A stretch of 53,648 nucleotides of DNA. It comes from Ignavibacteria bacterium (GTDB lineage: Bacteria; Bacteroidota; Ignavibacteria; Kapaibacteriales; UBA961). This document shows, piece after piece, positions 31,112-34,636 of the stretch. Numbering within the stretch: the first letter of the stretch is position 1; each line of letters starts with the position of its first letter. The DNA lies in assembly GCA_016873735.1 (NCBI GenBank), contig VGWD01000014.1:1-53648 (forward strand), written 5' to 3'. The position numbers and the translations under genes are program-made. The notes beneath the pieces are model-generated. The model was not told where the DNA came from. It saw nothing but the letters and a program-made list of their open reading frames with translations, and searched no databases.

Positions 31112-32614
31112 TCACTCATACACTTCATCCCATGAACATGGTTTGAACTGATATTCCACTCTTCGATTTCTTTGCCTGCCCTCCGGGGTGGAATTCGAAG
31201 TGAGTGGATACCACTCACCCCTCCCTACTGTGCTTATACGCCACTCTTCAATTCCTGCATCAATCAATATCTCCTTGATCGATTCTGCTCTGCATTCAGA
31301 AAGCCTGAGATTATCTTCATCTTTCCCTATGCTGTCAGTATGTGTAATGATGGTGATGCATGTATCCGGAAAGTTCATCAAGAACTTAATGATTTCATCA
31401 ACCTTGGGGGGACAATCATTATAGGGTTGACATTCATTATATGGATATTCACATCCCTCAATAATGAATGTAGGTGGCATGACAGGCGGATCTACCGGTG
31501 GCGTGACAGGGGGTGCTACCGGTGGCGTGACAGGGGGTGCTACCGGTGGTGTGTCAGGTTGCGCTACCGGTGGTGTGACAGGTACCGTTCCCGGTTTACA
31601 ATCAGGACATTTTGGACATACCGTGCAATGAATGCAGGTAATTCCCTGGCAAAAAATACAGATCACATGAACACAATCATGAGGACAAAATCCGCAATCA
31701 TGACTTCCAACCTCGAGTTCTGTATGAATGATTTCAACTGTGTCAGTTTTATGATGAACATGCAATCCATCAGGTATTTCCGATATACCATCATGATCAG
31801 GTTCTGCACCATCGGATTGATATCTTAGCAAAAGATTTCCGCCATTGAATCTTCCTGATTGAGTATTGACTGTTGAAGCGTCATTGAGGAAGCCAAGTGA
31901 AATTGCACCAAAAGAAAATTCTATACCCAATCTTGCTTCACGCAATACGGGATTTACCATAAATGAGGTAGTGAATACATTGTTTCTAGCCCCTGCACAA
32001 AGACCGAATTCCATTGAATGATGCTCTCCACCAAACAAGGTGGAATCAGATGTGAATTGTAATTTTCCCAGTACGGAAAGCCAATCAAACACTGAATAGA
32101 CCAATGAAAAACTATATAACAAATCTGCAGAATTCACAGAATTGAAATTTGTCATTCCGGCAGATATGAGTAGATCATCAATGGGTTTATGAATCAAGGA
32201 TCCATTGAATCGAATGACGCTCGTTCCAAAGTCGGAATAGCGCAAAGAGGCACCAAGCCATGTATTGTTTTCGATGATGGGGAATCCATATCCACCATAG
32301 AAACTAAAAGGGGTATATGGATTGGAGGGCAATTGAGTGTTTTTTTGCGAGGTGATTCCCAATCCGATCCCATCTTGTGAATAGAACCCTCCGACTTGTC
32401 CATTATATTCAAAGTTCCGAGTATAAGGAAGCACAAGCACCAAATCGGAGTCGGGAACAAGTCCCAATAAAGCAGGATTCCAACCAACCGAAGTTGCATC
32501 ATTGAACAATGTGAGAGGTCGATTGGTAAAGCGCTCCGGTATGAATGAACCCTGCCCAAAAACCGAATGTGAAATACCCAATACAAATAAAAGAAGTAGC
32601 ACTGGTTTCTTCAT
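31112..32614 (-). CDS. OmpA-family outer membrane protein with Cys-array and proline-repeat linker
   Basis: 500 aa. Signal peptide 1-20; a PorV/PorP-like beta-barrel region (about 25-266, opening FTNRPLTLFNDATSVGWNPALLG); a linker; and an OmpA C-terminal peptidoglycan-binding domain (about 385-490; THTDSIG, NLRLSECRAESI, RRVEY). The linker holds ten cysteines between 307 and 339 (C307, 310, 314, 319, 322, 327, 330, 333, 336, 339) and then a PPVT/PPVA proline repeat (345-381). Probably anchors the outer membrane to peptidoglycan; the cysteines suggest disulfide or metal chemistry. Paralogue of the gene at 32738, sharing barrel and OmpA domains but not the linker. Four extra cysteines (388, 395, 401, 419) lie near or in the OmpA domain. 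Confidence 0.85.
   Translation of the reverse strand: MKKPVLLLLFVLGISHSVFGQGSFIPERFTNRPLTLFNDATSVGWNPALLGLVPDSDLVLVLPYTRNFEYNGQVGGFYSQDGIGLGITSQKNTQLPSNPYTPFSFYGGYGFPIIENNTWLGASLRYSDFGTSVIRFNGSLIHKPIDDLLISAGMTNFNSVNSADLLYSFSLVYSVFDWLSVLGKLQFTSDSTLFGGEHHSMEFGLCAGARNNVFTTSFMVNPVLREARLGIEFSFGAISLGFLNDASTVNTQSGRFNGGNLLLRYQSDGAEPDHDGISEIPDGLHVHHKTDTVEIIHTELEVGSHDCGFCPHDCVHVICIFCQGITCIHCTVCPKCPDCKPGTVPVTPPVAQPDTPPVAPPVTPPVAPPVTPPVDPPVMPPTFIIEGCEYPYNECQPYNDCPPKVDEIIKFLMNFPDTCITIITHTDSIGKDEDNLRLSECRAESIKEILIDAGIEEWRISTVGRGEWYPLTSNSTPEGRQRNRRVEYQFKPCSWDEVYE
31488..31583. repeat. 24-bp tandem repeat encoding the PPVTPPVA linker
   Basis: Four consecutive 24-base units (31488-31511, 31512-31535, 31536-31559, 31560-31583) share the core CTACCGGTGG. 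Units 1 and 2 differ by only a few bases near the start; units 3 and 4 have drifted. The reading frame keeps an 8-residue period. Such repeats can change copy number by slippage. Confidence 0.85.
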
Positions 32615-32737: not shown

Positions 32738-34636
32738 TCAGCAACCAATTTGTGTAAACTCCACCCTTCTGTTTTGCTCCCTGCCCGCAGGCGTATCATT
32801 ACTTGAAACCGGTAATTCTTCACCAAAACCTTGTGCTGACAATCGAATTGGATCTATACCCTTATCAACCAAAAAATCCATGACTGATTGAGCTCTTTTT
32901 TGAGAGAGATTCAAATTATAATCATTCGTTCCATCACTGTCTGTATGTGCATTCAAGCGGACACAGACATTCGGATTTTTATCCAAATAGGAATAAAGTA
33001 CATCAAGTTCTTCCTTGCTTTCTTCTTTTACATCCCATTTGTCATAATCGAAAAATACTTTGCGAAGCTTATATGTTTTTCCGGTCGATTGATTGCCACC
33101 TTTGCTAGAATTTGAACTACTTGCCAAGTTATCAGACAATGGTTCTTCTGCTTCTTCAAATGGAGGATCTTCATCGGTTTCTTCCGGCATCGATTTTTTA
33201 GGAGTTGGCTGTTCAGTTTCTTCATCATCAAGCCATGAATCTTCATCTTCCGTTTCTGACTCTTTTGGCGCAGGTGCAGGTGCCTCTTGGGGTTTTACTT
33301 TTTGTGCACCTGTCGAGGTTGATTCAGGAGTTGAAGTATCAGGATTCTCAGCCTGTTTCTGCATGACTTTATTCTGCTGATTCAATACGCCGCCATCATA
33401 ATTCATTACTTCGTGGCACGGAATTTTGCAACCACAATATCGACAGCCTACGGGGTGATTATGCCCACCATCATTCATTGGATGTTTATCGAAATCCTGT
33501 CCGTGACCATCATGACCTTTACCTTCATGTGTTTCGGGTTTACAATTTGGGCAAGCACCATGTCCATCATGCTTGTGGCGTGGGCCACCAGGGATGATTA
33601 CATCACCACCGTGTCTAGGTGTGATATGTCCGCCGGGCTTTCCATATGGACATGTCAGGCCATTGCATGTGCTGCGTGAGCACGCTCTACCCGGACAGTC
33701 AACTTTAATGCAACGATAAGCAGGGCAGCGAGCATCTCCACAACGTTCACCTTCGCAACCACGAACGCCACATGCTTGTGTTCTACATATTGGTCGTGGA
33801 TAGCGATAGTGATCATATGCAAATACATCATCATGATTGACTCGCAGCAGGATATTGCCACCGGTGAATCTTCCGCCTGAATTGTTTAGTGTAGATCCAT
33901 CATTGAGTAGTCCGAGAGAGAATACATCGAATGCAACTTCGAGTCCGAAACGTGCTTCACGAGCAACCGGATTGACGGAGAATGATGTTATGATTCTTCT
34001 ACGATTGATCGCTGCACTGATTCCGAATTCCGAAGAATGATTTTCTTCAAAATGTAATGGTGCATCTGCACAATAGCGCAATCTACCATACATTGAAAGC
34101 CAATCCCAGGGTGTATAGGTAGTTGACAATTCATAGACAATGTCTTTTGTGTTCACTGAATTCAAATTGGAAATGCCTGCAGAAAGATAAAGTCTGTTAT
34201 AAGGATTATAAATCACGGATCCGCTATAACGAACAGTTCTACCACCAAATTCTGAATATCTGAATGAAGCGCCTGTCCACACATTATAACCGGGAACTTT
34301 GATACCCAAACCACCATAGAAACTCCATGGTACAAATGAGAATTCAGGCATACGTTCATTTCTCATGGATGTATATCCCAAACCAATTCCCTGGGAAGAA
34401 AAGAAGCCACCAACCAAACGAGTTGATTGCCATGTTCTATCATATGGAATAACGAGCACAACATCGGTTTCACCATTCATTCCGAGCAAAGCGGGATTCC
34501 AACCAACTGATGTTGCATCATTCATTAATGTGAGAGGACGATTGGTAAATCTATCCGGAGTGAATTGTCCACGTAATTCACTGCTAAACCCCAAAACGAC
34601 GAGCAATAAAGCAAAGAAGTAAGAAAATGTTTTCAT
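32738..34636 (-). CDS. OmpA-family outer membrane protein with period-5 Cys array and His-rich linker
   Basis: 632 aa. Signal peptide 1-23; PorV-like barrel region (about 25-266, opening FTNRPLTLMNDATSVGWNPALLG); linker 270-520; OmpA domain 522-632 (VFFDYDKWDV, NAHTDSDGTNDY, NLSQKRAQSV, NRRVEF). The linker is extraordinary. Ten cysteines sit at exactly every fifth residue from 284 to 329, eight of the nine four-residue spacers hold Arg or Lys, then a His/Gly-rich stretch (337-394) with ACPNC (361-365), then GCRYCGCKIPCHE (397-409), then an acidic Ser/Glu/Asp tract (458-500). It is the tandem paralogue of the 31112 gene. Likely an envelope-anchoring protein with a metal-binding or disulfide-rich linker; function inferred only. 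Confidence 0.88.
   Translation of the reverse strand: MKTFSYFFALLLVVLGFSSELRGQFTPDRFTNRPLTLMNDATSVGWNPALLGMNGETDVVLVIPYDRTWQSTRLVGGFFSSQGIGLGYTSMRNERMPEFSFVPWSFYGGLGIKVPGYNVWTGASFRYSEFGGRTVRYSGSVIYNPYNRLYLSAGISNLNSVNTKDIVYELSTTYTPWDWLSMYGRLRYCADAPLHFEENHSSEFGISAAINRRRIITSFSVNPVAREARFGLEVAFDVFSLGLLNDGSTLNNSGGRFTGGNILLRVNHDDVFAYDHYRYPRPICRTQACGVRGCEGERCGDARCPAYRCIKVDCPGRACSRSTCNGLTCPYGKPGGHITPRHGGDVIIPGGPRHKHDGHGACPNCKPETHEGKGHDGHGQDFDKHPMNDGGHNHPVGCRYCGCKIPCHEVMNYDGGVLNQQNKVMQKQAENPDTSTPESTSTGAQKVKPQEAPAPAPKESETEDEDSWLDDEETEQPTPKKSMPEETDEDPPFEEAEEPLSDNLASSSNSSKGGNQSTGKTYKLRKVFFDYDKWDVKEESKEELDVLYSYLDKNPNVCVRLNAHTDSDGTNDYNLNLSQKRAQSVMDFLVDKGIDPIRLSAQGFGEELPVSSNDTPAGREQNRRVEFTQIGC
33413..33811 (-). 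other. Cys/His-rich linker segment of the OmpA-family protein
   Basis: Codes for residues 276-408: 16 cysteines and 13 histidines in 133 residues. The period-5 cysteine array is at 33650-33787. No CxxCH haem motif occurs; the closest, CKIPCH, has three residues between the cysteines. I know no domain with this spacing. Confidence 0.85.

Follow-up and report, generated by a model that had tools for sequence, protein, structure and literature searches.

Proteins in which an outer-membrane barrel is joined by a linker to an OmpA domain are common, and their linkers are usually regarded as inert tethers. Some known systems serve for comparison. The updated consensus of the pentapeptide repeat has Leu or Phe at the central position i and a small residue at i-2, where Cys is allowed (PMC8145042). 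The hyperactive antifreeze protein of beetles is composed of TCTxSxNCxxAx coils with intra-repeat disulfides between C2 and C8 (PMC8038014). Chlamydia possesses a DsbA/DsbB pair (PMC6752827).

The protein discussed here, P0001, carries ten cysteines at an exact period of five residues in such a linker. It is encoded in the window, that is, the whole stretch of 53,648 nucleotides that was analysed, with a tandem paralogue, P0002, downstream. The features are:

32738..34636, minus strand: P0001, 632 aa, with signal peptide, predicted FadL-fold barrel, Cys array, His/Cys-rich and acidic low-complexity linker and OmpA domain
33833..34576, minus strand: predicted outer-membrane barrel of 14 strands with the FadL fold and a hatch at the N-terminus, residues 21-268 approximately; NPA is N47-P48-A49
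33650..33787, minus strand: Cys array, residues 284-329, probably five decapeptides, CRTQACGVRG / CEGERCGDAR / CPAYRCIKVD / CPGRACSRST / CNGLTCPYGK
extending to 33638, minus strand: the last four array residues, PYGK
33413..33553, minus strand: His-rich stretch with CPNC (362-365), CRYCGC (398-403) and then C407, from alignment and positions
32741..33055, minus strand: OmpA domain (528-623, PF00691) and C-terminal tail with the Cys pair C558/C632, whose coupling was followed in 32 domains
32741-32967, minus strand: codons of C558 and C632, the coupled OmpA Cys pair
31112..32614, minus strand: P0002, tandem paralogue, 500 aa, with the same barrel, an irregular Cys-rich linker (CGFCPHDCVHVICIFCQGITCIHCTVCPKCPDC), a Pro-rich repeat and an OmpA domain with six Cys

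The OmpA domain of P0001 was clear from sequence. The PF00691 match (E=2e-20, residues 528-623) scored 73.4 bits against a cut-off of 27.2 and covered profile positions 1-98 of 98, and the NCBIfam matches of the protein fell on the same domain. HTD, NxxLSxxRA and NRRVEF features were present, and the residues of the peptidoglycan-binding region appear conserved. The Pfam FadL/TodX profile gave no match in P0001; up to E=1 only OmpA and a chance Med13_C match were found. AlphaFold2 with nine homologues predicted a beta-barrel and a confident OmpA domain, joined by a linker of some 250 residues which is mostly at pLDDT 22-37 and thus predicted to be disordered. Modelled alone with 18 homologues, the barrel reached pLDDT 75 and pTM 0.76 with 14 strands. 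For this model, VIA-align gave Z 22.7 against the FadL homologue 3dwo, with 233 residues aligned at an rmsd of 3.2 A; against 6h3i_F and 8gl6_F, chains of the type IX translocon which we take to be PorV-type, Z was about 20.6. The 14 strands, the hatch and the NPA that lies in the hatch (within a WNPALLG motif) of the predicted model are those of the FadL fold. Since the strand number is even and the N-terminus periplasmic, residue 268, after strand 14, should be periplasmic, so that the array would start about 16 residues below the barrel. The initial annotation had placed the array in the periplasm, in the linker that joins an outer-membrane barrel to the OmpA domain, and the architecture from Pfam and AlphaFold2 agrees with this; that architecture comes from the sequence and from a predicted structure, and is in part a prediction. 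The neighbours of P0001, an S41 protease, MetG and TrpS, gave no functional clue.

The cysteines of P0001 are at residues 189, 284, 289, 294, 299, 304, 309, 314, 319, 324, 329, 362, 365, 398, 401, 403, 407, 558 and 632. The ten at exact period 5 between 284 and 329, with codons at 33787..33650 on the minus strand, thus lie where they were first noticed, and the Arg or Lys reported in eight of nine spacers was likewise found (RTQA, GVRG, EGER, GDAR, PAYR, IKVD, PGRA and SRST, the exception being NGLT). This regularity is not due to chance: when all 632 residues were shuffled 20,000 times the longest period-5 run was 4, and when only the surrounding 65 residues, with their 10 Cys, were shuffled 200,000 times and all periods from 2 to 12 were scored, it was 7, compared with 10 observed. 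A recent DNA tandem repeat was considered as the origin of the array and rejected. TRF found no tandem repeat there, and the lag-15 identity of the DNA was 0.44, much of it contributed by the TGY codons themselves. Because the array DNA is not a tandem repeat, the regularity sits at the protein level. The array is followed by the His-rich linker with its CxxC and CxxCxC motifs, in which C398 and C401 do not vary among the nine homologues aligned; a CxxCH haem-binding motif as in multihaem cytochromes c was absent from the P0001 sequence.

It had been supposed that no described domain has this spacing, and Pfam and PDB sequence searches without a match to the array bear this out. Literature searches turned up no described period-5 Cys domain, and those on keratin-associated pentapeptides and on Cys-rich Planctomycete walls were without a match. 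The 12-residue TCTxSxNCxxAx repeat of insect antifreeze proteins does not describe the array either, whose unit is 5 or 10 residues and which contains no TCT. No relatives were detected on viral contigs or plasmids. Scans of the phylum and of genome contigs for seven or eight Cys codons at period 5 returned, in nearly all matches listed, DNA tandem repeats, out-of-frame pentapeptide-repeat genes or poly-Cys artefacts; among the matches listed for a sample of 395 genomes of the phylum, those of P0001's own genome and of G004 alone could be assigned to the array family. The array therefore looks like a small undescribed repeat module, known so far from one genus only. Two separate observations belong to these surveys. 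A minus-strand ORF of 217 aa in a Pirellulales MAG (L174) has an apparent signal peptide and 28 consecutive period-5 Cys in pentads such as CRPRT and CEPVT; it is independent of the P0001 array and is also a repeat at the DNA level. Small metallothionein-like ORFs (MNNCKCTNCDCTKCNCKNC...) occur in four genomes of the phylum (L057, L061, L062 and L063), that of L057 having no Pfam match.

Homologues of P0001 were found in all seven genomes of the genus. The exact array of ten Cys was present in the orthologues of G002 (88% identical), G004 and G006 (both about 60%). In the six pairs formed by G000, G002, G004 and G006, the ten Cys codons had no replacing changes and 3-7 silent ones, and the other 36 codons showed 3-16 amino-acid changes. 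Judged by these codons, the Cys spacing is held by selection. The Cys count of the module is fixed at ten, an even number, in these four genomes, and the spacer residues retained across the exact arrays comprise several G and R, a P-A-[YF]-R-C-I-K core and the GR of CPGR. Pentads at a distance of two are alike (11/2000 permutations), which is not so for pentads at a distance of one or three. Pentad permutation of the even-minus-odd lag contrast gave 6/1500 for all four sequences, 5/1500 for G004, 1/1500 for G006 and 136/1500 for G000 alone; this contrast was picked after the lags had been seen, and the orthologues are not independent of each other. Since alternate pentads are alike, the repeat unit would be ten residues and the array five decapeptides. 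Given the post hoc contrast and the related sequences, a decapeptide rather than a pentad unit is likely, but not proven. An internal duplication of 25 residues was also considered and is unsupported, the outstanding lag being two pentads, i.e. 10 residues.

Other homologues depart from the exact spacing. The protein of G003 has one inserted residue, a Tyr in place of one array Cys and two extra Cys pentads upstream. G002_b, a paralogue, has Tyr at the same array Cys together with a deletion of one residue, so that period 5 is nearly kept in both. The proteins of G001 and G005 have the same barrel and OmpA domain and a linker which is Cys-rich without period 5; the second copy in each of these genomes, of about 900 aa, has no Cys-rich linker. 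P0002 is 48% identical to P0001 over residues 9-335. At window positions 31473-31595 its gene contains a 24-bp tandem repeat coding for a Pro-rich linker of the TPPVAPPV type. Conservation of the spacing thus holds for G002, G004 and G006, where it is exact, and fails for G001, G005 and P0002, whose Cys-rich linkers are aperiodic. The case that the initial annotation had named as a refutation, homologues which share barrel and OmpA domain but not the Cys spacing, has therefore in part come about. From these aperiodic linkers it follows that period 5 is, as far as the homologues compared can tell, the form which a more widespread type of Cys-rich linker has taken in a single lineage, and that the exact spacing is not essential to the family. 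In a barrel tree (midpoint root, some forks weak) P0002 and G002_b were outermost, followed by G001/G005 and then by a clade of the exact arrays that included G003. By this tree the array would either be older than the paralogue split, with local decay, or have spread by gene conversion between tandem copies. The Cys to Tyr change (YPAYR) that G003 and G002_b share, seen in L043 and L042 when compared with L041, L044 and L046, likewise suggests gene conversion between tandem copies or a parallel change.

A pattern match in G023 led to a second family, composed of tandem outer-membrane proteins in other genera of the same order (L209, L210, L212, L215, L226, L227 and L235). The segment directly after their barrel is extremely Cys-rich and irregular, with up to 25 Cys in 70 residues (examples are CCLPCCGNSDCPPCCCHTCWCSCCHCCCCCCSC and CNVCLCCYCRMCSACCCMPC), and the Cys runs are accompanied by His and acidic residues. 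No homology of this barrel to that of P0001 was detected by profile comparison (hhalign, probability 1.1%), and the gene neighbourhood offered no functional clue and no metal theme. Most of the other OmpA proteins of the order that were examined are Cys-poor. A Cys-rich segment beneath an outer-membrane barrel has apparently arisen at least twice in the order, and the exact period 5 belongs to one of these lineages.

In P0001's own genome, which is 99.9% complete, VKOR, DsbB and Thioredoxin_4 were all absent, and DSBA was not found in G000, G002 or G004. None of the 61 genomes of the order that were searched contained VKOR or DsbB (positive controls elsewhere). A DsbD-type membrane domain (DsbD_TM) is present in six of the seven congeners. 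All seven have a haem-copper oxidase, so the cells probably respire oxygen. Among 32 distinct OmpA domains, the Cys pair just before beta-2 and at the C-terminus was complete in 10 and missing in 22, and a single Cys was never seen; every Cys-bearing domain of this set had an even Cys count, and further coupled cases were found beyond it. Coupled domains occur at L011, L012, L042, L200, L211, L213, L219 and L221 as well as in P0001, shared ancestry reducing the independent events to perhaps four or five. The coupled pair is a sign, of the kind expected as the trace of a disulfide, against an all-reduced periplasm. Counted over the whole periplasmic part, the Cys come to an odd number in G002, G004 and G006.

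We tentatively favour the explanation that the array, situated where the barrel opens to the periplasm, is a repeat stapled by disulfides. P0001 would be an outer-membrane FadL-fold barrel tied to peptidoglycan by its C-terminal OmpA domain. Five degenerate decapeptides of the form C-x-[GA]-x-x-C-x-[DKR]-x-x would follow in the periplasm, about 16 residues beyond strand 14. In the periplasm of an aerobic cell their Cys would be oxidised and paired inside the module, for example i to i+5 within each decapeptide. Such staples could make of a hydrophilic repeat without a core a compact stalk or plug that resists proteases and sits at the barrel's opening to the periplasm. From there a flexible His/Cys-rich and acidic tether would run to the wall-binding domain. 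The oxidation, the pairing scheme and the role as stalk or plug are inferred. We put this explanation first because of the exact and selected spacing, the even Cys number, the probable ten-residue unit and the missing hydrophobic core. It is consistent with the lack of replacements at Cys codons while silent sites and neighbours change, with the coupled OmpA Cys pair and the even counts, with probable oxygen respiration, and with the intra-repeat disulfides of beetle antifreeze as a precedent (PMC8038014). Several observations argue against it. The 61 genomes searched contain neither DsbB nor VKOR, Thioredoxin_4 is missing in the own genome and DSBA in G000, G002 and G004, and the DsbD-type domain of six of seven congeners could keep thiols reduced. 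AlphaFold2 left the array structure-less (pLDDT 25-33), from a thin alignment of nine sequences. G003 and G002_b have replaced one array Cys by Tyr, total periplasmic Cys are odd in three genomes, and there are period-less relatives. A bolder version, in which five ten-residue coils each hold one C-x4-C disulfide in a lineage without a known disulfide-generating enzyme, so that both the fold and the route of oxidation would be new, we consider unlikely.

The main rival is that the whole linker is a thiolate/imidazole metal-binding segment of the periplasm, like a metallothionein tethered to the outer membrane. The array and the His-rich CxxC/CxxCxC stretch might then capture soft ions, e.g. 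Cu(I), Zn(II) or Cd(II), where the barrel opens to the periplasm. This is a possibility to be taken seriously, if somewhat doubtful. The array runs into the His-rich CPNC/CRYCGC stretch with the invariant C398/C401; the period-less lineages carry sequence rich in CC, CxC and CxxC, which are common in metal thiolates; and the second barrel family combines Cys runs with His and acidic residues. Moreover, in an order without DsbB and VKOR, and a genus with DsbD_TM, thiols may stay reduced. We keep metal binding close behind disulfide stapling because His, CxxC and CxxCxC lie near the array and the Dsb oxidants are missing. However, C-x4-C is an unusual chelating spacing, a loose chelator needs no exact spacing, the array is strongly basic (eight spacers with Arg or Lys), and neither S41 protease, MetG and TrpS nor the neighbours of the second family have a metal theme.

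Cross-linking of the envelope through intermolecular bonds of the array Cys is improbable. Tandem paralogues are Cys-rich at the same place after the barrel, both in G000 and in the second family, and chlamydial MOMP, OmcA and OmcB provide a precedent (PMC6752827). Random cross-links, however, need no exact spacing, the 900-aa copies of G001 and G005 have no Cys-rich linker, and DsbB was not found, unlike in Chlamydia. Improbable too, and ranked below cross-linking, is a reduced thiol buffer or low-complexity Cys-rich linker with little sequence-specific function, its regularity left over from an old repeat expansion. The fast divergence of the linkers and the tolerance of irregular Cys-rich versions would suit such a segment, but the absence of any replacement at the ten Cys codons, against changes at their silent positions and in their neighbours, would not, and the spacers are not recognisable as copies at the DNA level. 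A quadrilateral beta-helix of pentapeptide repeats (PF00805), already doubted in the initial annotation, shares the period of five and permits Cys at the inward i-2 position (PMC8145042), but can hardly be entertained: with Cys so placed, position i (Cys+2) is T, V, G, D, A, K, G, R, G and Y, that is, Leu or Phe in 0/10 pentads, Pfam gave no match at E up to 10 and AlphaFold2 no helix coil.

The significance of the array lies in what it says about linkers. In a single order, the linkers of two barrel families without detectable homology have reached an extreme Cys content, and one lineage has its Cys in an exact register that selection maintains. If oxidised, as in the disulfide-stapled repeat we favour, they would indicate disulfide chemistry in an order without DsbB or VKOR and offer a minimal stapled repeat for design. 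If loaded with metal, they would amount to an outer-membrane-tethered metallothionein at the mouth of a channel.

Compared with known systems, P0001 resembles FadL and PorV barrels in its predicted 14 strands, N-terminal hatch and NPA motif, but its barrel is much shorter (about 245 residues), has no Pfam FadL/TodX match and is fused to a linker and an OmpA domain. This domain is full-length, with HTD, NxxLSxxRA and NRRVEF as in the OmpA family (PF00691; Pal, YiaD and the C-terminal domain of PorE), from which it differs by its coupled Cys, one before beta-2 and one at the C-terminus; in P0002 there are six Cys. With the chlamydial outer membrane complex (MOMP, OmcA and OmcB) P0001 has in common that envelope proteins are Cys-rich; Chlamydia has DsbA and DsbB, whereas neither DsbB nor VKOR was found here. 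Like metallothioneins the array is Cys-rich and basic with variable spacers, and other linkers of the order have CC, CxC and CxxC; unlike them it is built solely of C-x4-C, lies in the linker of a secreted membrane protein and matches no Pfam family. Pentapeptide repeat proteins (PF00805) share the period of five, but 10/10 pentads of the array are without Leu or Phe at i. The beetle antifreeze beta-helix, like the array, has a short repeat with a pair of Cys in each unit and hardly any hydrophobic core (PMC8038014), but its coil is of 12 residues with a six-residue Cys spacing and a TCT ice face, and the sequences are not related. The parts of P0001, namely a FadL fold, an OmpA domain and a Cys-rich linker, are of known kinds; their arrangement is new.
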